64,000 nt of DNA. Source: Sphagnum magellanicum. Its lineage: Eukaryota > Streptophyta > Sphagnopsida > Sphagnales > Sphagnaceae. The notes beneath the pieces were generated by a model, which saw nothing but the letters and a program-made list of their open reading frames with translations, did not search any database and was not told the origin of the DNA. Of the stretch, positions 51,051 through 64,000 are shown in pieces (position 1 is the stretch's first letter; each line of letters starts with the position of its first letter). Location: the NCBI GenBank assembly GCA_021904315.1, contig CM038926.1, positions 2,450,718-2,514,717 of the forward strand, read 5' to 3'. The translations under genes were made by a program, and so were the position numbers.

Positions 51051-52245
51051 TCAATGATCATGTAAATTTCACATGGACATTATATTTATTAAGTACATTT
51101 CAAAATGAATAAAGTAAACAACTTCAAAAGATTGACCAAAAATTAATATGAATTTGAAACTTGAGACCTAGATCATTTTGATCATCAAATAAGCTAGAAC
51201 TTGAGAACCAAATATTTGGAAGGATATATATATGTATATACATTTGAAAGTTTAAAACCAGATCACTAATAAAACCAAATAGTGAGATAATTAATGAAAT
51301 TTGAAAGTTGACAACCATAAGTAGACCCTACATATGGAGAAATTTCAAAATTGCAAAAGTTTCATAACCAAAAAATCTAAAACTTGAGTAGTAGGTAACT
51401 AAAAAAACTATGATTAATATGGTTTGAATGAAAATAACTTAATAATGATGTGATGATAACTAGAAGATATATATATCATATATGAATAATCACACAAAGC
51501 TTTGTCAAAATGTGAAAATTGTGACAAGTTTTGGAATAAACAATATACCTTGATTGAAACAAATGGACTTGAATTTTAGAAATCTAAACTTGTAGTTATT
51601 TTTTTGAAAATCATGCCAATCTTTGTAAGATGATTTTATGTATAAAAGAAAGGAGAGGAATTGTGTCAAAGGCCATTGAATTATGTGATTGTATGTGTTG
51701 ATGAGATGTCATTGATTGTGAAGACTCACATGAACTTTGCATGTATTGACTAAATTTCCAAATGAACAAATCAAACAACTTCAATAGGGGGCTTGAAAAC
51801 TCATATGGGTTCAAAATGTGAGACGCAAAGAATTGTAATAACTAGATAACTTGAAACTTGAGAATGAAATATTTGGAAAACTATATAAATAAAATGGTTT
51901 GAAATTTCAAAACCAATTAATCAAAAAACCAAATCATGATATAACCAATGAAATTTGAAAATTTGAAAATGTTTATAACTAGGTAAACTACAAATTGGAA
52001 AATGTTCATGACCAAGTAAGTTTAACTAAAAAATGTTCAAATCCAAATAAGCTAAAACTTTAATAGAAAAATGGAGAAGCTAGAAAGTTGAAAACCTTAA
52101 ACCTTATCACTTCCAAATAATGAAATACCTTGAGAATGAAAGTTAAGAGCTACAAAATTAGAAAAGTTGAAATTTGAAAATTGGAAAATTTTGACATCTA
52201 AATAAAATAAAGCTTGAGTATCAACTAATCAAATAAACTTGATAG
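51051..52245. other. AT-rich intergenic sequence with short degenerate repeats
   Basis: Recurrent words such as AAACTTGAGAACC, GAAATTTGAAAGTTGA and AACCAAAT occur throughout, and similar words occur at 49900-50110 on the other side of the solo LTR. It seems to be one old repeat block interrupted by the solo LTR. No gene is supported. Confidence 0.5.
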
Positions 52246-52536: not shown

Positions 52537-52558
52537 CAAAATCCATTTTACTTTGTTG

Positions 52559-52869
52559 TGTCATGCCCGTATGCACGGCCTCATGCATGATGGCCGGTTA
52601 CGGGCATGCCCGTCATATCTTTTAGGGTTATTGTATGGTTGTAAGGTTATGAACGTTCTTAAGTGACTGTGCGCTATTAGGTTTAGGGTTTCAGCTTTTG
52701 GTGGCTATATAAAAGGGCCAAGCCCTTCCCTTATCCTTTAGTTTTTCTAGAATTCCTTTGTATGAAAGTTGCCTCCATAGTTCACTTGGATTTTCTAGAT
52801 GCTCATGGTGGTTACTACACGGCCACCATCTACATACACCTTCACTACTTCTTTGCAATTTATTTCAAT
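52559..52869 (+). mobile_element. 5' LTR-derived segment
   Basis: Matches 61374-61685 with about 8 substitutions and one indel, starting TGTCATGCCCG and ending TTTCAAT. The 167-bp U3 start that follows the polypurine tract at the 3' end is missing here, so this LTR seems 5'-truncated. Where U5 ends cannot be decided. A CACAACA at 53728-53734 is a possible end, but no clear primer site follows it. Confidence 0.75.
52706..52716 (+). promoter_or_regulatory. LTR TATA box
   Basis: TATATAAAAGG. The corresponding 3' LTR copy has TGTATAAAAAAAG at about 61525, with the motif damaged by substitutions. Confidence 0.65.
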
Positions 52870-53755
52870 TTTAGAAAAACTCTATTTCCTATTGCTTCAT
52901 GTTGAAAGCAACAGATTTCTTGCACTTTTGAAGTTCTTGAGTTGTTACTACTGGTGTGGTGTTGTTGCTGCCGGAGGGAGCGCAAGGAAGGAGCGCAAGT
53001 TGCTACTACTATTGTTGCGAGAGGGAGCTTTTGTGTTACATTCAAGCCAACCAACAGAGCCGGGAAACATGTTTCGAAGCCCTGTCTCTTTTCTCTCTGT
53101 CTTGCTCTCGTTCTCTCTTTGAAACTGTCGAGTAAAAAAAAACAAAAACAAAAACAAAAATTTCGGCGCTAGCCACCTGCCATCGCTGCAGAGCAGCGTA
53201 GCCCTGCCTGCCGTTACCACGATGTGAACTAAAGTAGCGTTATAGCGTTGTTGCAGCGCCTGTTGCAACAGTGCCGCAGCAACGCGAGCTGCAGCAGCGT
53301 TGTCGCGACGCGTGTTGCAACAGCGGCGTAGCGTTGCCGCGACGCGAGCTGTAGCATTATAACGCTGCGAGCTTGCAGTGCTATAGCAACGCGAGCTTGC
53401 ACCACTGCAGCTCCACGTTGCCATCGCCATCGCCACAAAGTTCACGGGCGAGCTGCGGCGTGGTGACCTTTGATGTTACGGTGCCGATTTCCGTCTGTTG
53501 ACTTCCGTCCACGAACTTTCGTCCGTCGGTCCTACGTCATGTCGTCCTGTTGTCTTGCGCCCTACGCCCTACTATTTACGTCCTGCCATTTTACATCCTA
53601 CCTTTTCATCCAACATCTATTTGACTTCCGTGCAATATTTGTGTGTCACGGGTTATTCCCAACAACGCACTTTATTCTTCAAATTGTGCGTTGTGTTAGA
53701 ATTTTGTAGTTAGTGTTGTGTACTATCACAACATTTTAGGGCATGGGACAACACC
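52870..53755 (+). other. Leader with GC-rich repetitive segment (53164-53460)
   Basis: There is no supportable ORF. 53164-53460 is strikingly GC-rich and CpG-rich compared with everything around it. It is built of short variant words such as GTTGCAACAG, GCGACGCG and GCAACGCGAGCT, several of which are mutually complementary. A strongly folded leader RNA (packaging or translation signal) is one possibility. (AAAAAC)n sits just before it (53137-53160). Confidence 0.6.
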
Positions 53756-56056
53756 ATGTCCTCGGATGATGAGAGCACTACCGCTAGGCCAGAGCCTAGG
53801 TATCAGCTACGAAGTAACACACAGTCCTTTGAGTCGATTTCTTTAAGCTCACGATCTTCATGACAATACCATCAAGCATCCACAACACCACCGTCATCTA
53901 GTACAACTCCTACGAGGAATTCAGGTTTAGGTTACACCACATCAACAGTACATCAAAGTCCATTTGGAGGGGTTAATCAATGGGGTACACCTATTGCTGC
54001 ACCTACTTTCACACCATCACCGTATACTCCGTTGCAAGCTGTGACTTCAACACCCATATAGACCATGGAGGTCAGCAGTTCCTCTGGGAGAATTAAGAAG
54101 TTCAGCGGAAGGCCAGGTACTATTTCTTTGAGGGAGTTCAAGGCAACCTTCTCAACTGTGGTTTATGAATTGGAGTTCAAGTACGACGCTAATTACACAG
54201 AGGCATTTGCATTCAAACAATTGGCTCGTTATATGCATTATGAGGCACTCGATGTCTACGAGCAACATTCTGCAAGGATTTTGGGTGTCACCCAAATTCC
54301 CAATCCAGCATACGCCATAGCCATTACCACCGCCTCTCAAGTTGCAATTGCACATCACGGGACTATGCCGAATAATCTAGACCCAGTACCTACCTCAATA
54401 AACCTTTCTCCTCAACAATTCATTGTTGCTACTACAAACATTCCTCCCACAACTGATGTGCCAGCTTTTGCTGATCCAGTGGGGGAATTCTTTCGAATTC
54501 TTAAGCTGGAATTTCCAGTCAAAAGTTCTGAAAAAATTCTGTAGCTCGCCACCTTCTCTCGACAAAAGGATGAAACCCTCAAGATGCTCTACAGGAGGCT
54601 TCTCAAACTCAAAGAGGATACCCAGAGCATCACCGACTTGGAAGCTGCCCACCGGTATCTTCGTTCGTTGGAAGGTACTCCAACACTCCACGCGCAGGTT
54701 TTACAACGGGTCTTTGCAGAATTTGGAGATTCATACACTTTGTTGGATGTGTACAACATTTCCGAAAAGTTGGAACTGGCTCATGCACACTATGAGGCCA
54801 GTACTATGAGGCCTCCATCACGTTCAAGGCCTCAGCCTACACAAGCTGTGCCAACTAGATCATCACATTCTTCTTCAAGAACTAAAGCGGTGCACACAAC
54901 TACACCCATCCTACCTTCTTGCAACTACTGTGGCAATCCTGCCCACAAAGCTAGTGAGTGCAACATTCCTTCTTAAGATCTCTTTTGTGATTATTGTGGA
55001 AAAGAGGGACATTAGGAATCTGTCTGTTTTGCCAAGTTCCCAGAGCGGAAGCAACTCCGATTACAATGGCAAAATCTGCCAGCATCTTCCGTTGTCCCTC
55101 AACCAAAAGCCAAGGCACCTCAGCCTTCCACTCAGGCTTTGCCCACCAAGGGTAATTCCAACAAGAATGCTAAGAAGAAGGAGCACAATGCTGACAAGAA
55201 GGAGGTGCTTCAAGCCCATGCAATTCAAGTTCAGACTTTACAAAATGAACTCGAATCATTGAGGGCTCAACTTGCTAATCTAAAAGGCAAGTCCTCCCAA
55301 CTAGCTAGTCATGCCCAACCTGTACAAAGTTCAGGATCACGAGAGGGACCTCCTAGGTCGTTCTATGGCCTTCCACACGATGCCATGGTTGGGGAGTATG
55401 TTCTTTCCACTCCACGCAATTCTAGTTTCACACCAGAAGTTGCTACTTCTTTTTGCCCTTCCTATGTCGCGGCACAAGAAGCTAGTGTGGCACCCAGAGT
55501 TTCTGCCACTAGGCAGGTAATTCAAACCGATGGACTCGCATCTAGTTCAAGTCCTATTACCAGGGCTAGAGGAGCTCGAGCAGTCATGCCACAATCTTTT
55601 CGTCCTCTCAACATGGAAGAGGAACACACCTTGTTGGCGAGGGGGGGGGAGACTACTACACCACAAGCTGTTAGGGCATCAAATTCTCGTGTCCCAGGAG
55701 TACATGTACATAAGGAAAACACACAATTTTCCACTAATCAACTTATGGAATGCCAACTTCAAATGCATGAAGTGGCGCAAAAGCTTGTGAGTACACCATT
55801 GTTTAGTTTTCAAGATTTGAAGCTAAGCACCAAGGACATAATTGCAATCTTAGAGGATACCTTGAACATTACATCAGGTCCTCTACCAATCCCTGATCCA
55901 CATGCTACAGAGGTCCCATCCAACACCTTGGAGAGACATTCGATTGGCTCACATGTTGCAGATGGCGTTCGTAATCTGGTCACTAGTTCTAGCATGGCTA
56001 AACTAGTAGGCTTTCCTACCTTTGATTCTACATTCACATATCAAAAGGGAGTTTAG
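53756..56056 (+). pseudogene. Gag region of the methyltransferase-bearing element
   Basis: The frame starts at ATG 53756 (M-S-S-D-D-E-S-T) and passes stops at 53861 (TGA), 54059, 54542 (TAG), 54974 (TAA), 55013 and 56054 (TAG) with no frameshift. A capsid-like helical region lies at about 54090-54780 (F-S-G-R-P-G-T near its start). Two CCHC knuckles follow: C-N-Y-C-G-N-P-A-H-K-A-S-E-C (54920-54961) and a second at 54986-55027 whose spacer contains the TAG at 55013. After them come a Lys-rich coiled-coil-like stretch (55140-55290) and a long Ser/Pro-rich linker. At 767 codons this is longer than typical Ty3/gypsy gag. Role: particle formation and RNA binding. Confidence 0.88.
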
Positions 56057-56899
56057 AACACCTCACTTGTAGATTTGTTACTTAGCAAAGGTGTTGTGGA
56101 TAGCCATGCTCTCCACAAAGTCTCTCACTCATTTTCGAAGGTGGTGCCTAGTAAGAGAACTTCCATCGCCACCGGAGTTGCCATTGTCGACAATATTGGG
56201 TCAGCAATCCAAGTGGGAGGACATACACCTAGAGTGGTACTTCTTGACACAGGTGCCCAACCAGTGATTCTTGGAGTTCAATTCGCCAAGAAGATGGGCA
56301 TGCTTGACTCCAAACTACGAAAATCTATGTGGCAGATTCGCACTGCTAGTGGGAGCGTAGAGGAGGTACTTGGGGAAAGCTCGGATTTGATTGCACTTAA
56401 GTTCAATGAAGGTACAGATCAAGAGCTTTGCTTACAGGTCATATGTTTAGTCACCAATGCCACAAGTTATGATGTGCTCATTGGGCAAGAGGCCCTGTTT
56501 CCACCAAGTTTCACAATTGACAACTGGTTCGAACATGCGTACTACAGAATGGATTGGGAAATTGATGGCCACCACTTGGGATACATACCCCTTGATTTAC
56601 ATGGGAACCATAGTCCTATGGCTCACCATTGCATGCTCAAGGAAGCACACACCATTTCCTACATCCAACAAGCTAGCCACGAATGGATAGAGGGAGATGA
56701 GGAGGAGATAGCTTACGTTCAAGCTACTGAAAGCTTGAAGGTGGTTCCTACTGACATCCAACATGGACCAGAGGTTTTACAAAGGTTCAAAGTAGCCCAC
56801 AAGCCCTTGGTCAAAGCTTTGTCTAGTTTTGAAAGCATGGAAAGCCATGGTGAACCGATTAAACCATTACTTCGTCAGCTCATCACCTGGACACCACCT
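56057..56899 (+). pseudogene. Aspartic protease and linker
   Basis: In frame with gag. The active-site motif is L-L-D-T-G-A-Q, Asp at 56246-56248. A second strand block S-Y-D-V-L-I-G follows about 75 residues later, the usual retropepsin arrangement. About 120 residues of linker then lead to the methyltransferase, with a H-H-x-G-Y and an acidic D-E-E-E stretch. I see no domain in the linker. It would cleave the polyprotein. Confidence 0.9.
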
Positions 56900-57872
56900 A
56901 AGGAAAGGATTACATTACTAGAGCTCTTTGGTGGTATTAGTACAGGTCTTGAAGCCCTACTACAGTCAGGGATGGTGGTTCGGAGGTATTTCTACGTAGA
57001 CATTGATCCTATTGCAAGGCAAGTGGTGGCATCAAGAATGAGAGAGTTCACAACAAGATTTCCGCAACAATTTGCAACCACCGCATGGAAGGCTAGTTTC
57101 ACATTTTTGCCCTCTGACATACAACTAATTCAGAAGAAACATATGGAATTACTTGGCCCTATCGACCTCATCATTTCAGGTTGGGAGTGTCAAGGATTTT
57201 CAGCGGCTAGATTTGGAGAAGGCTTGAATGACACAAGATCTGGTCTTTTCACGGACATGGTACGATTGATCACCTGGGCTCAATCCATTTCTCCTACACT
57301 TGGGTATGTAATTGAGAACACTCCTTCTCAGCTTGATCAGAGGGAGAAAGTCCAGGAGCACTACACACTAGTCAAGCATTACCTTGGAGAGCCGCTCTTA
57401 CTTGATGCGGCACAATGCGGTTCCTATGCGCACCGGCTGCGCAATTGGTGGACCAACTTGGCACCACTCTCAGTTCTGCAGCTAGCTCTAAAATACACTA
57501 TCAGAAACCCCAACCTGCAGGTTTTTCACATATTGGATGATCAAAGTTCTTGCCAACCAGTTACAAGGCAAGAAAAACTTCCTTAGTTTCCTGCGAACAC
57601 AATAGGAAAACCAAGAGGTGCTTGGCCCACCTTTGTCTCCTTCCCAGGAGCACACGCCTTTCAAGGAGATGGGCCAGGCCTGGTGTATCGTCATGCTTCA
57701 ACCATTTGGGATGAACCAAGCCCAGAAGAAAGAGAAAGGGCTATGGGGTTCCAAGCTGGCACTACTAGTCACACTAAGGTGACTAGATTGGAGCGTAATG
57801 CTCTACTAGGAGAAGCATGGACCTGAACTCTCTTACATGGTTATTGGTAACTTGTGTACTCTTTCAAATGTA
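56900..57872 (+). pseudogene. C5-cytosine DNA methyltransferase domain inside the retrotransposon
   Basis: In the frame opened at 56075, motif I is L-E-L-F-G-G-I-S-T-G (residues 282-291, SAM binding). The acidic D-I-D-P of motif II is at 309-312. Motif IV is I-D-L-I-I-S-G-W-E-C-Q-G-F-S with catalytic Cys372 (57188-57190); the usual Pro before Cys is Glu. D-T-R-S-G-L-F is at 386-392. Motif VI is E-N-T (414-416). A-A-Q-C-G-S-Y-A-H-R-L-R-N-W-W (445-459) resembles the DNMT3 A-H-R-A-R-Y-F-W region. After TAG 57584 the frame continues with P-S-P-E-E-R-E-R-A-M-G-F-Q (motif IX-like) and E-R-N-A-L-L-G, where motif X begins. The rest of motif X seems to lie in the RT frame. It would methylate cytosine in DNA using SAM. 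No PWWP or ADD module is visible. Subfamily (DNMT3-like versus other) is inference from motif flavour. Confidence 0.9.
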
Positions 57873-59793
57873 CACAACACCAACACTAGTTCAATCAACT
57901 TGCAATTCTAATGATGCAACCACATGGCACCTCGACCAAGTACACTTGCCTATCTTCAACACTCTACATTTCACTCTCAGTGTTGGGGGGGAAGAGGTAC
58001 CATGTAATTTGACTCAAGTTGTGTCTAATACACCTGGAGGTGCATCAGCTTCTGGAGAAACAATCACAACCTCCTACGAATCTACGCAGTTGGATAGTGG
58101 AGAACCCAATACATCAGGTTCTTCAAACACACTTTCCAACTCCATTCCAAGTGTTTCCAACTACCCTTTCATTATGGGGAACCGGCTCACCAAGAAGGAA
58201 AGAGACCAAGTCACAAACTTGCTAATTAAGTATGAGAATGTGTTTTCATTTTCAATGAAAGACTTAGGTAGGTGTAAGACCATGCAGTTTTCTATAGACC
58301 TTACAGATGAGACACCTGTTTATCGAAGGAGGCATAGGTTGAGCAAACATGAATGGGAACTGGTAGATGAAAGATGCAAAAAGCTCCATGAGGCCGGTCT
58401 CATTCAGCCATCAAGTTCTGATTTCGCAGCCGCTACAATAATGCTAGCAAAGAAAGATTCAGCTGGATTATGGACTGAGAAAAGGATGTGCAAGGATTAT
58501 AGGCCTTTGAACCTAGTTACACTGCAGGATAGGTACCCCATGCCCATCCCTGAAGAATTGTTTGATAGCATTGGAGATTCAAACATCTTCACAATTGTGG
58601 ATCTGAGGCAAGGTTTCAACCAGATTGTGCTCGCTGAGAAGGATCGCAAGAAAATAGCATTCCATGGAAGCAACAAGTTATGGGAATGGCTTGTGATGCC
58701 TTTTGGATTGAAGAATGCACTTGTCTTCTTTCAACGAGTCATGGACCAGGTTCTCAAAGGGGCAGATTTCCTGAAGTGTTACATAGATGACGTCCTAGTG
58801 CATAGCAAGGGACTCCTGTAGCATTTGGCTCATCTTGAAGAGTTATTCAAGAGGCTCCACGAAGTCAATATGAAGATCCATCCTAAAAAGTGTGAGTTTG
58901 CTGTCACCTCAGTAATCTACCTTGGACATAGAATTTTGCCAAATGGTACCATGGCTCATTGGGCCAAAGTAGTAGCCATTTTGGAGATGCCCAATCCTAC
59001 TAATGTTCACACATTGAGGAGCTTCATCGGACTATGCAATTACTACAGAATTTATGTCCAAGATTTTAGTACTATTGCTCATCCTCTCTATGCATTGTTA
59101 AAAAAGGATGTTGCTTGGACATGGAGTGATGAAGCTCAGGAAGCTTTCAACACACTCAAGGAAAAGCTTTCAGAGTTCCCCATTCTGAGAAGACCTGATT
59201 TCAACAAGGTTTTCATTCTACACACTGACTAGAGTGCTCTTGGTATTAGAGCTATTCTTGGCCAACTTGATGAGGAAGGCAAGGAATATGTTATCGCCTA
59301 TGCATCTCGAAGCAACAACAAGGCTGAGAGCAACTATTCCTCATACGAGGGGGAGTGCCTTGCTGTTGTATGGGCCATCATACATTTCAGGCCTTATCTT
59401 TATGGCACCAATTTCACTTTGTATACCGACCACCAACCTATCAAGTGGTTAATGACCAATGATAAGCTTACTGGTAAGTTAACTCGTTGGGCGCTTATAC
59501 TTCAAGAGTATGAGTTCAAGGTTATTCACCGACCTGGTATTACACATCAGAATGCGGATACCATGTCACGAAGACCCCTCACTACCTCTGAAGATTTTTC
59601 AGAAGCCAGGCAAGATTTTGACCAGATTCCAACAGTACCTGTATTTGAGGCATCTAGTTATCTTGCATTACTACAATGCAACTTGGTTGAGCAACCCATT
59701 CTCGATATATGGGAGGACTTAGACACTCTGAGGTTTCTTCAACATGGGGAATACCCTCCCCAAGTTACGTCAAGTCAGCGAGATCGCATATAA
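57817..59793 (+). pseudogene. Reverse transcriptase - RNase H
   Basis: The frame is open from an ATG at 57817 that overlaps the methyltransferase frame's TGA (ATGGACCTGA). A Ser/Thr-rich stretch precedes RT. RT blocks are D-Y-R-P-L-N, V-D-L-R-Q-G-F-N-Q and catalytic Y-I-D-D (residues 322-325). TAG 58819 falls just after the catalytic motif. RNase H follows with H-T-D (Asp directly before TAG 59230), Y-E-G-E-C-L-A and Y-T-D-H-Q-P. The frame then goes past R-P-G-I-T-H-Q-N-A-D to TAA 59791. Catalytic residues are intact; three stops break it. There is no frameshift within this part. Confidence 0.93.
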
Positions 59794-60985
59794 CAGCGGT
59801 CCAAATGCTATTCATGGAGGGACAATCACCTTGTCCGATGCTTACCACAAGGCGACAGAGTGGTTCCACCACCACATGAACGGCATGGTCTTATTCAAAA
59901 GGTACACTCGGAGCTTGGACACTTTGGAGTTAAACGTACTTATAGCCTTCTCACTCCTCATTACCATTGGAGAGGTATGTATGTTCAAGTCCGAGACATC
60001 ATTGCTAGGTGTGAACAATGTGATAGAGTGAGAACTTCTTTCTCCTCTCGACAGCTCACGCTTTCTCCACTCCCTATTCAGGGCATGTTTTATCGTTGGT
60101 CAAGTGATTTAGCTGGAGAGTTACCACAAACCTCTAGGGGTAATGTTTACATCATGATTATGATTGAGCATTTTTCAAAGTGGGTTGAACTTGTTGCGCT
60201 ACCAGAAAAGTCATCACACAGCACCAGTTAGGCTTTCTTACAACAGGTTCTAAGTAGATTTGGGGCTTATGCTAAGTGCCTTATTGATCAAGGATCAAAA
60301 TTCAAGGGAGAATTCCAAGACCTACTTGACCATGCTCTCATTGACCATCGTCGGACTTCAAGAGATCATCCCCAAGCTGATGGCCTTGCAAAAAGGATGG
60401 TTCAAACGTGCAAAAAAGGACTTCGGAAGATTTGCCTCACTAAGAACAAAGAGGATTGGGACCTGGCCCTCCCTTACATCGCCATGGGTTACAGGATGTC
60501 CAAACACGCCTCTTTATCTCATTTCTCTCCTTACTTTTAACTTTTTGGGAGACACCCCATTCCACCCTTTTCCATTACTGCTCAAATGGACCAGGTTGTG
60601 GACTTGGATTCCCCAGCCACTTGGGCTAGGGTCATTGCAGAAAGGGCTGCTCTATTTAGGAAGGTTATGCCCATGGCCATGGAAAACTTGTCCATTGCAC
60701 AACATCGAGACACCTTATGGTATGCACACACACGAGGTGGCAGTTACAAACCTAAGGTGAGACAATTTGATGTTGGTGATTTTGTGTATCTTCAGCGACA
60801 ACCCAATGATACTTTAGACACTTCTTCCGGTCGCACTATTTTGAGGATTAAGGCAATCAGGCCTTCAGGTGTGTTGGAGTTACAAGGAGCTGACGGACGC
60901 ACAATTCGTGATCATTCCAAAAATTGTGCGCCCTGCCACTTGCCGAACTTGGATCCTACCACATCACGTCGACTTGGATTCCTCC
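59794..60985 (+). pseudogene. Integrase with catalytic Glu replaced by Lys
   Basis: Continues the RT frame. The HHCC zinc module (H-S-E-L-G-H ... C-E-Q-C) is encoded at 59905-60021. The first catalytic Asp is in S-S-D-L-A-G-E (60106), the second in L-I-D-Q-G (60286). At 60391-60393, where Glu is expected (D-G-L-A-x-R-M), the codon is AAA (Lys). TAG 60229 and TAA 60538 interrupt the core. The C-terminal region has a V-G-D-F-V-Y-L-Q-R SH3-like start and R-I-K-A-I-R-P-S-G-V. It then runs towards the PHD finger, which is in another frame because of an indel near 60950-60985. Confidence 0.9.
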
Positions 60986-60989
60986 ACTT

Positions 60990-61154
60990 GATTATCCATG
61001 TCAAGTATGTCAGAGGACGGACGATGCTGATCAGATGTTACTTTGTGACAACTGTAATGGTGGATACCATCTCTTCTGCCTCAAGCCGGAGCTCACTCAA
61101 GTTCCCGTCGGCAATTGGTACTATTCATCATGTTCTCCTACAGCACCTTGATTC
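60990..61154 (+). pseudogene. PHD finger at the integrase C-terminus
   Basis: Encoded in the frame of 60924-61151. Ligands: C26-x2-C29-x11-C41-x2-C44-x4-H49-x2-C52, then a x14 gap, position 67, x2, C70. This is the C4HC3 PHD pattern with the conserved Trp (W65, two residues before position 67) and L-L-C-D-N-C-N-G-G-Y-H. Ligand seven is Tyr (TAT) in place of Cys, a one-base G-to-A type change. Family knowledge: PHD fingers read the N-terminal tail of histone H3. Here it takes the place that a chromodomain has in chromovirus integrases and may have guided integration (inference). It ends at TGA 61149-61151, about 40 bp before the polypurine tract. Confidence 0.88.
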
Positions 61155-61192
61155 CTACTCAGACCATGCCACGCTTTTCCCGGCTTAGGTCT

Positions 61193-61200
61193 GGGGGGGG
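61193..61200 (+). other. Polypurine tract (G8)
   Basis: Eight consecutive G residues directly before ATACATGAG. Its position marks the start of U3 at about 61201-61206, not at the TGTCATG of 61374. Confidence 0.7.
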
Positions 61201-61367
61201 ATACATGAGAATTTCATCTCAGCCTCCCTTGTGCATTGTGTATATATGTGTGTGCATGCATCTCTTTGATTAGTTTCTACCTTTAATTGGTTTTAGGCTA
61301 TTTGTTTAGTAAGTTTCCTGCGGATTCACACCTTTATGACACTGTATGTCACGACACTACACGTCAC
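61201..61367 (+). repeat. 167-bp block, first copy (U3 start)
   Basis: ATACATGAGAATTTC to ACACGTCAC. It repeats at 61686-61853 with about 4 substitutions and a 1-bp indel. It follows the polypurine tract immediately. Confidence 0.9.
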
Positions 61368-61373
61368 AACAGC

Positions 61374-61685
61374 TGTCATGCCCGTATGCACGGCCTCATG
61401 CATGATGGCCGATTATGGGCATGCCCGTCATATCTTTTAGGGTTATTATATGGTTGTAAGGTTATGAACGTTCTTAAGTGACTGTGCGCTATTAGGTTTA
61501 GGGTTTCAGCTTTTGGTGGCTGTATAAAAAAAGCCAAGCCCTTCCCTTATCCTTTAGTTTTTCTAGAATTCCTTTGTATGAGAGTTGCCTCCATAGTTCA
61601 CTTGGATTTTCTAGATGCTCATGGTGGTTACTACACGGCCACCATTTACATACACCTTCACTACTTCTTTGCAATTTATTTCAAT
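61374..61685 (+). mobile_element. 3' LTR-derived segment
   Basis: Matches 52559-52869. It is preceded by the first 167-bp block and directly followed by the second, so it is sandwiched between direct repeats. Its TATA box is altered by substitutions. Confidence 0.8.
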
Positions 61686-61853
61686 ATACATGAGAATTTC
61701 ATCTCAACCTCCCTTGTGCATTGTGTATATATGTGTGTGCATGCATGTCTTTGATTAGTTTCTACCTTTAATTGGTTTTAGGCTATTTGTTTAGTAGAGT
61801 TTCCTGTGGATTCACACCTTTATGACACTGTATGTCACGACACTACACGTCAC
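61686..61853 (+). repeat. 168-bp block, second copy
   Basis: Repeats 61201-61367. It begins exactly where LTR similarity with the 5' end stops and ends at the apparent right edge of the element. Confidence 0.9.
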
Positions 61854-64000
61854 GATAGTTGTTCTTATTCAATATATAATGCTTCTTAATACTTGTGTGG
61901 GGTTAAGTTTCCAAGAGCGTGCATTGGAGTTGCCATCCTATATGGTTATATTGAAAATGGGTTTCTAAAGACATGAGTTTCAACCCATCAATATTGATTT
62001 CAATTCTTTGTTATGTTCATTATTTTAAATACCAAATTTATATGATTTTGGCTTTAACATCAAACATTGAGTCATGGGATTTTTTTCGTGAACACCCACA
62101 ATCTTTGTCCACGATCATTGATTCAAACACTTGTTTTTCTTCCTTGCCAAATATTATTCAATATTTTTGCTACCATGTTTTTTTCAATTTTTAAAAAAAA
62201 ATTCTTCGCATATCCCCATATTTAGATCAATTACAAAAGGGTATCTGTGCATTCTTGGAAAATTTGTTTTGGTGAACACCTTCCAAGTGTTGTGTTTAAA
62301 CCCCCCCAACATGTCACAGTGTGGGTTATTTTTAAAAATACCATCATATTTTTTTCTTTAATGGATCATGGGTGTTCACTTGCAAACACCTACCATATTC
62401 GTCCACGATGATTGATTAGATATGGCAATATTTGTGGTACGATGTTCCTTTGATGATAAGGACTTTGAATTCCACACATATTCCCATGATTAATGATATT
62501 ATGGAATGATTTGTGTTCACTATTGACATTTTTGTTTTTTTGGCCGAAGAATGCCTACCCCTTTGTGTGCCTAAACCCACAAATTTACAATTTGCAAAGT
62601 TTGAAATCATAATTCAAAAGTTACAAATTGTATTGTTCCCCACATGTTCCTGCCATTTAATCTTCTACCACCCATCAACAAAATCTTCAAGTGGTAATGA
62701 TAACCAATGACATGGAACATTCAAACCAACCATTCAACCTTTGGCCAAAAACTATTGGACGTATTTCAAAGGTTTAAACCTTTCATTAACCCTAACAAAA
62801 TGTCCACCATTCAAACCATTGTTTTAAGCACCTAATAGAGATTGAAACCTTGAAAAATAACATATATAACATTGTGGAAAAGCAATTCAAGTATTACAAC
62901 CAAATGATAATAGAATCCAACTTGATTTCATGCACGGGCCAATCTTGTTTAAGCATACTTTCATATAATACACATGTCCACGGTGTTCAATGATTTAATG
63001 AATAATGCAATACCATAATCAAAAGACAAATATAAGTGTTGCAAAAAAAAGTTTGAACACGTTGTTTACAACTACCTTAGACAATCCTCATAACTTGTCA
63101 ATTAGTGAAAACAAGTGTCTGTTGTGTCCTTGGAAATTGATGAATTGCTAATAATGTTGTACCCTAGTGAGGTCAACAAAAAGGTCTTATAAGTTAGTGG
63201 ATGGTGCAAAGTCTTTACCATGGTTGACTTCCCATACATTATACTGCAACCAATGGGCAATAAACTACACTACAATTTTATTTGTGGTGGTTGTTTGTTT
63301 CGTTTTTAAACCTTTACATGTGTTGTTGAAAATTTTGAATAAGACTATACCCTTATCTTCTTGTGCTCTGACTGCAAATATGCTAGACTTAGATTTTACC
63401 CTCACCATATAATGTCCTATCCTTCACATTTCTTGCCCATTTGCCCTTTCTTTCCCCACCCTCTCCTAGGCAATGGATGTCAAGATCAAACCTCATTTGC
63501 ACCACTCCATAGAATGTGGAAAAACCATAGGCCTAACATTTGCCTTTTGGGTGATGAGTGCCAACTAATGTTTGTGCATCCTTACTATTACCTCTCAATG
63601 TAGTGGATGTTGCAATAGTTCGGATCTTTTCACCACAGTGCATTCCTATTTTCTTTGGCTCCATTGTTGTAGACATAGGGGCCACTGATCGCCAACCTCG
63701 CACTGGATTCAAAAGGTTTGTAACAGTCTTCTCATGTGTGGTAAGAAATTGTGCTGATCGACACCTATTATGTTCTTCATTGCACCTTCGATCATATCTT
63801 GCATTTTTACTTTTTGCTTCACTTGGACTTTGTGGACGGGTTAGAAAAAACTCTAATTTTGACTTTGAATTCTCTTCTTCCTCTATTTCATCAAGTATTC
63901 GAGTGCATTTCAAGGTTTCTCATACAACTTTGCTCATTTTTTTACTTTGGCTACTTCGACACTATGATATTTCCACTTATTAAACATGATGACACAATTC
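61854..64000. other. AT-rich intergenic sequence
   Basis: No gene is supported. 63533-63913 (minus) and 63558-63983 (plus) are overlapping open frames. The minus one (126 codons) is rich in Lys/Arg/Glu and Ser and could be a protein fragment, but I recognise no family. Words such as GGTGAACACC and GTGTTCACT recur at 62090, 62270 and 62365, hinting at an old dispersed repeat. Confidence 0.45.

Follow-up and report, generated by a model that had tools for sequence, protein, structure and literature searches.

The closest described system to the element discussed here is KnitGypsy-Dnmt3 of the alga Klebsormidium nitens, a Gypsy-type pol with a DNA methyltransferase 3 (DNMT3)-type domain, which is reported in the available part of its source to have DIRS-like repeats, to be under purifying selection (ratio of nonsynonymous to synonymous substitution rates, Ka/Ks, under 0.2) and to have been acquired independently, as its authors propose (de Mendoza et al. 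2018, PMC5890265). The same part describes two retrotransposon-encoded DNMTs from dinoflagellates, SymbioDIRS-Dnmt3 and SymbioLINE-Dnmt, of which the SymbioDIRS enzyme methylates CG de novo in yeast, and it already places such elements in green algae, at least in general terms. Phygy and Selgy, from a moss and a lycophyte, are plant Ty3/gypsy clades outside the chromoviruses (Neumann et al. 2019, PMC6317226, available portion). Here, we report a Ty3/gypsy-type element of the moss Sphagnum magellanicum, located in a 64,000-bp stretch of contig CM038926.1 (GenBank assembly GCA_021904315.1, positions 2,450,718 to 2,514,717, forward strand; hereafter, the window). The window carries a decayed copy of a multi-copy family with the order gag, protease, DNMT3-type methyltransferase, reverse transcriptase (RT), RNase H, integrase and plant homeodomain (PHD) finger. 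Elements of this kind are already known from the K. nitens alga; their distribution is wider, and their architecture more unusual, than could be seen in the preliminary description of the window, which was made from the sequence alone.

The Sphagnum element resembles KnitGypsy-Dnmt3 in combining a Gypsy pol, a DNMT3 domain and a DIRS-like repeat arrangement (the repeats are likened through the published description, as far as it was available), and the RT and integrase of the two are of common descent. The differences are that the host is a land plant, that a PHD finger is present, whereas none is mentioned in the available part of PMC5890265 or found in the partial K. nitens protein P0186, that the Sphagnum side shows many copies, A1-only and solo forms and 4-bp target duplications, and that the family is wider than the acquisition proposed for K. 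nitens alone. A land-plant lineage with this domain order and a PHD finger had been put forward in the preliminary description as probably new; KnitGypsy-Dnmt3 shows that the kind itself is not, and in P0186, too, the methyltransferase precedes RT. The dinoflagellate elements are alike in encoding a DNMT and belong to unrelated element classes (DIRS and LINE). Phygy and Selgy, compared by description only, are also gypsy elements outside the chromoviruses in moss and lycophyte, whereas neither a methyltransferase nor a PHD finger is mentioned in the portion of PMC6317226 that was available. In the open-access literature, screened by title and abstract, we recognised no such elements in mosses or liverworts, found no description of the two domain positions discussed below and, apart from the K. 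nitens one, came upon no gypsy element whose direct repeats are split.

As the preliminary description had claimed, a C5-methyltransferase is built into the Ty3/gypsy polyprotein between protease and RT, and a PHD finger is terminal. Neither of the findings that would have overturned that description, absence of a C5-methylase match or lack of the domain in the other genomic copies, was made. The five blocks named there are all present on the + strand, in frame 2: motif I (56915-56947), motif IV, GWECQGFS (57179-57202), motif VI, VIENT (57308-57322), the AHRLRNWW block (57428-57451) and a motif IX-like block (57716-57751). The HMMER check proposed for the domain gave a PF00145 match of 35.1 bits (E 1.3e-8), above the curated cut-off of 22. 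The best match in both sequence and fold is the DNMT3A/DNMT3B catalytic domain: phmmer against the Protein Data Bank found DNMT3A (E 6.5e-8), the structure predicted for P0027 is DNMT3-like with an unpermuted motif order, and its structural alignment to DNMT3A/DNMT3B gives about 24% identity. P0023 lacks motif I. Unlike DNMT3A/DNMT3B, the reference polyprotein P0001 (see below) has neither an ADD nor a PWWP domain among its Pfam matches.

Pro is the usual residue before the catalytic Cys of C5-methyltransferases, and DNMT3A/DNMT3B have Pro-Cys; the Sphagnum element has Glu-Cys-Gln, with the Cys retained. The preliminary description called the Pro-to-Glu change in the window unusual for the superfamily; within the retroelement family, Glu is the commonest state: among 97 relatives in the matches listed, the residue is Glu in 46, Pro in 18 and another in eight, and 25 gave no pattern match. 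Pro-Cys is retained in a second Sphagnum family (family 2) and in P0031 of the liverwort genus Calypogeia. Across nine aligned domains, the catalytic Cys, the Glu-Asn of motif VI and the AHR block do not vary. In five proteins with the methyltransferase before RT (P0194, P0196, P0201, P0202 and P0207), the match is weak (E 1.6e-20 to 2.1e-17) and no motif IV pattern is recognisable; judging by sequence, their enzyme is perhaps decaying or divergent.

The window holds a single Ty3/gypsy-type element, at 52559-61857, with GTTG on either flank; its edge was set from the 5' flanks of 17 copies. Its features are as follows.

52555..52558, no strand: 5' target-site duplication GTTG (4 bp)
52559..52869, + strand: terminal repeat A1, 311 bp, start of the element, TGTCATGCCCG, a 97% copy of A2
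54038..56196, + strand: gag region, frame 2, several stops; CCHC knuckle at 54920-54961
56207..56497, + strand: retropepsin-like protease, LLDTGAQ at 56240-56260; PF13975, E 4.8e-6, 27.5 bits
56900..57817, + strand: DNMT3-type C5-cytosine methyltransferase domain; the C-terminal helix runs on in frame 1 to about 58000
58330..59082, + strand: RT, YIDD at 58780-58800, frame 1; RVT_1, E 1.7e-15, mapped from P0001
59110..59532, + strand: RNase H; PF17917, E 2.3e-34, mapped from P0001
59845..60672, + strand: integrase, H2C2 zinc domain and DDE core; PF17921, E 2.3e-16
60999..61133, + strand: PHD finger, frame 0 in the window copy; PF00628, E 5.4e-11 in P0001
61193..61200, + strand: eight-G run immediately 5' of B1, read as a putative polypurine tract
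61201..61371, + strand: repeat B1
61372..61373, + strand: GC joining B1 to A2 (CACAACA-GC-TGTC in the window)
61374..61685, + strand: repeat A2; eight differences from A1 over 311 sites, all transitions
61686..61857, + strand: repeat B2; the element terminates in CACGATA
61858..61861, no strand: 3' target-site duplication GTTG

Just 5' of the element, 51155-52216 holds imperfect direct repeats that are AT-rich and 49 to 62 bp long. The coordinate reference, and only that, is P0001, a 2379-aa frame from another copy (L013), in which a protease, PF00145, RVT_1, two RNase H models, H2C2, rve and PHD are all in one frame, and whose gag part has two zinc knuckles. In tblastn searches, residues 1-1268 (gag, protease and methyltransferase) map to 54038-57817 in frame 2 at 92% identity, RT to integrase to 57811-60960 in frame 1, and residues 2318-2379 (PHD finger) to 60963-61148 in frame 0 at 92%; over the whole of P0001, identity is 92 to 94%. 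The Ty3/gypsy order, gag and protease followed by RT-RNase H-integrase, is present, with gag named from its position and zinc knuckles: no Pfam gag model matched in the window element, and zf-CCHC reached only E 0.21. The protease score in the window is slightly below the curated cut-off of 28.2 bits, which P0001 reaches (28.2), and the rve match has E 0.0053 in the single frame scanned. Colinearity in one frame, as first described, holds for gag, protease and methyltransferase (frame 2, + strand), whereas stops interrupt that frame, RT lies in frame 1 and the PHD finger in frame 0. After the first Met position, frame 2 has stops at 54542, 54974, 55013, 56054 and 57584; frame 1 from RT to integrase also has stops between its pieces, the integrase is broken by stops and its active-site block altered, and the far C-terminus of the methyltransferase sits past the first frame change. 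With five stops, the further stops in frame 1 and two frame changes, the window copy is therefore dead.

The methyltransferase is found family-wide. The 439-Mb genome has 124 PF00145 matches, host genes included. The 509-aa window frame (protease and methyltransferase) was found at all 84 scored places with 80 to 100% identity, a few of them covered partially; these were drawn from 1240 first-look candidates, a set selected by the query itself. An RT-based search scored 119 of 3452 candidates, and the best 60 loci were considered (55 examined) and compared with most of the window-frame matches and some of the PF00145 matches: 53 of these best 60 have the methyltransferase upstream on the same strand, and in a further locus, L034, it is present with a frame change. 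Host genes were rejected as an explanation: judged by their translations, L002, L005 and L029 are exons of host DRM genes in which the motifs are permuted, and L030 is MET1-like.

Ratios of nonsynonymous to synonymous polymorphism (pN/pS), pooled over 21 copies, are lower in integrase (0.25), methyltransferase (0.31) and RT (0.33) than in the methyltransferase-RT linker (0.46) and protease (0.57). Nonsynonymous-to-synonymous counts of methyltransferase variants fall from 2.85 in single-copy variants to 0.53 in those common to at least three copies (Fisher p 1.9e-6), two of the shared variants being stops; the contrast also reaches significance in gag (p 6e-6), integrase (p 2e-4) and the linker (p 0.01). 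In our reading, the methyltransferase has been passed down as a functioning component of the element, under purifying selection. Singleton C-to-T changes are seen at 18 to 26% of C sites, the figure for A/T transitions being 3.3%, a pattern that methylation of silent copies would be expected to leave; counts for CG and CHG in this analysis are low, and the neighbour filter biases them. Family 2 (L001, L003, L004 and L031), 42% identical to the window family in the methyltransferase, likewise has this domain between protease and RT, together with split repeats; in L031, the layout is that of the window family, with B2 clipped at the stretch end, and a C-terminal PHD-like Cys/His pattern is visible by eye.

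Beyond Sphagnum magellanicum, the retroelement methyltransferase is real, conserved and part of a wider family. A first protein search gave 18 polyproteins. The 17 with RT all have the methyltransferase after RNase H, and in 16 of them, including one from the chlorophyte Monoraphidium neglectum, integrase and PHD finger follow the methyltransferase (P0019 ends within the domain). A second search (387 matches, 120 listed) included Calypogeia fissa, Marchantia polymorpha, Riccia sorocarpa, Sphagnum and K. nitens among the matches listed: the Sphagnum compactum protein P0117 is an 80% match, Calypogeia P0059, 64% identical to the window family in the methyltransferase, has protease and methyltransferase joined, and Riccia P0133 has methyltransferase and RT joined. 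A third search, with an RT-to-PHD query, gave 472 matches, and the 120 listed contained 113 new rows. Among these, RT precedes the methyltransferase in 73, including Haematococcus and Pleodorina (integrase after the methyltransferase in 72, PHD in 69); the methyltransferase precedes RT in 21 (protease in 11, PHD in 10), including Closterium P0212, P0218 and P0234 and K. nitens P0186, which reads protease-methyltransferase-RT-RNase H-integrase; three have a methyltransferase without RT and 16 have none. Klebsormidium and Closterium are streptophyte algae, and Pleodorina, like Haematococcus, is a chlorophyte.

A quick, midpoint-rooted tree was built from RT and integrase in 61 rows, with one in four of the unnamed chlorophyte-type rows retained. 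It unites the methyltransferase-bearing elements in a single group, with a Shimodaira-Hasegawa-like approximate likelihood ratio (SH-aLRT) support of 99. Within it are a streptophyte-type group (SH-aLRT 95) that unites both Sphagnum families, K. nitens P0186 and Closterium, and a chlorophyte-type group (SH-aLRT 99); P0165 is unplaced. Outside the main clade stand gypsy elements without a methyltransferase, P0245 and P0249 (Closterium), P0226 and P0246-P0248, the last four of which have PF00628 (PHD) in the precomputed list. The methyltransferase tree (56 rows) has long outgroups, DNMT3A and Sphagnum DRM, and was drawn without host DNMT3 of plants or algae. Rows with the chlorophyte-type order share a single clade (100/99), and family 1, that of the window, is sister to an algal clade (95/86), whereas the RT tree groups it with the streptophytes; an approximately unbiased (AU) test did not reject streptophyte monophyly (p 0.333). 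These trees suggest an element family common to charophytes and chlorophytes, rather than the capture in a land-plant lineage first supposed, and we read them as one old family with one change of domain position.

The best-surviving alternative is that there were two captures, in which streptophyte elements took a host DNMT3 before RT and chlorophyte elements took one between RNase H and integrase. The domain position does differ cleanly between the two RT clades, and a tree without plant or algal host DNMT3 is compatible with separate host origins. Against this, the retroelement methyltransferases form one group relative to DNMT3A and Sphagnum DRM (99/99, with long outgroups), the Glu variant occurs at either position, RT and integrase point to a shared ancestry of the elements, and many rows have the PHD finger in common. 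We regard two captures as a serious possibility, short of being the expected one. More tentative still, and on balance doubtful, is the fullest history that could be drawn from these data: a single permuted-LTR (long terminal repeat) Ty3 lineage whose own DNMT3-type enzyme would predate the chlorophyte/streptophyte split, would have moved once within pol, gained the Glu-Cys variant and methylated element cDNA, with an integrase that would cut the internal junction of a circle, so that one cDNA would give three product types.

The repeats are not plain LTRs, and here, too, the first interpretation needs changing. The layout A1-body-B1-GC-A2-B2, in which A is 311 bp and B about 171-178 bp, is found in the window, L010, L012, L016, L020, L022, L023, L026 and L027; the same 3' end occurs in L014 and the diverged L024, and L028 stops inside A2. 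Five copies (L011, L013, L015, L017 and L025) are A1-body-B1 only, with target duplications, L018 and L019 have this layout without one, and L009 and L021 are incomplete or atypical. A script found 4-bp target duplications in 13 of 17 copies, with both layouts represented, and none for L016, L018, L019 and L021, of which L016 fits by eye with a variant end. Tandem-like repeat arrays adjoin the element body in L009 (9162-9935) and L014 (9006-9893; locus + strand). The A1 and A2 repeats of ten copies show 4 to 12 differences over about 310 sites. The B1/A2 junction is GACA-GC-TGTC in seven of the 11 copies inspected and shifted by one or two bases in the other four, and the eight-G run directly precedes B1 in all four copies inspected. 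The element does not have an identical LTR at each of its two ends; the ends are TG...CA with 4-bp duplications. Genome-wide, A2-B2 sites number 51 at no more than one mismatch (control 0) and 21 when exact. Six of the exact sites, by eye, have no copy in our lists: L037 is a clear solo A-B with CCTA on both flanks, the only solo form seen, L035, L036 and L039 have B ahead of A, and L038 and L040 are ambiguous. Three insertion forms are seen with 4-bp target duplications: A1-body-B1-GC-A2-B2, A1-body-B1 and, once, solo A-B. A DIRS element was rejected on finding Integrase_H2C2 and rve, 4-bp duplications and no recombinase family among the 12 Pfam matches of P0001.

How might such an element work? 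By the usual rules, an LTR begins right after the polypurine tract, so the classical LTR here would read B-GC-A, and the integrated ends would therefore fall inside it. The DDE integrase would ignore the outer LTR ends and act on the internal B-GC-A junction, which is nearly palindromic: opening a two-LTR circle at one junction would give A1-body-B1-GC-A2-B2, and opening it at two would give A1-body-B1 or solo A-B. The methyltransferase, most likely inside the particle or pol complex, would methylate fresh element cDNA, and the copy would arrive already carrying marks like those of host DNA. A probable role for the PHD finger, which lies behind the integrase, is to read histone tails at the target. 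Taken whole, this combination of cDNA methylation, histone reading and internal-junction integration is the account we consider probable, with moderate confidence.

Several observations weigh against it. Both A1-body-B1 and solo A-B could equally be explained by post-insertion repeat recombination, so the short forms do not prove a circle. Directly after A1 (52870-53010), no tRNA primer site was recognised by eye. Glu before the catalytic Cys might weaken catalysis, and KnitGypsy-Dnmt3, the closest tested relative, gave no methylation in yeast, a result its authors call inconclusive (PMC5890265, available part). Six of the 61 RT rows lie within the methyltransferase-bearing clade without the domain, although several of the six may be partial proteins; an element can thus do without it. 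L033 shows only a 21-aa methyltransferase remnant within the 1.4 kb fetched, and only 10 of the 21 listed relatives with the methyltransferase before RT have a PHD finger. The singleton-versus-shared contrast is not significant in protease (p 0.24), RT (p 0.45) and RNase H (p 0.55), and is therefore a blunt measure.

The domain might instead be kept for something other than cDNA methylation, acting with its Glu on RNA, or serving as a structural component of the particle that binds nucleic acid but does not methylate it. The prevalence of Glu over Pro and the inconclusive yeast result fit such a role, whereas the invariant Cys, Glu-Asn and AHR block, the predicted DNMT3 fold and the Pro-Cys of family 2 and Calypogeia P0031 speak against it, and we think it unlikely. 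More improbable again is an enzyme that acts in trans on the host genome, for example by shaping chromatin at insertion sites or interfering with host silencing: a PHD finger adjoining integrase could tether the complex to chromatin, and many copies are present, yet the domain lies within pol, which works in the particle, and singleton C-to-T changes, whose per-site frequency is at least five times that of A/T transitions, are expected of methylation-silenced copies, not freed ones. A one-off host fragment in the window copy, or chance similarity, for which only the decay of that copy could be cited, is refuted by the 84 of 84 scored copies, the liverwort and algal relatives and the signal of selection, and its probability is negligible.

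DNA methylation is a main weapon of the host against retrotransposons. That a DNMT3-type domain is encoded by, and conserved in, an element family of green algae, liverworts and mosses therefore suggests that being methylated can benefit the element.
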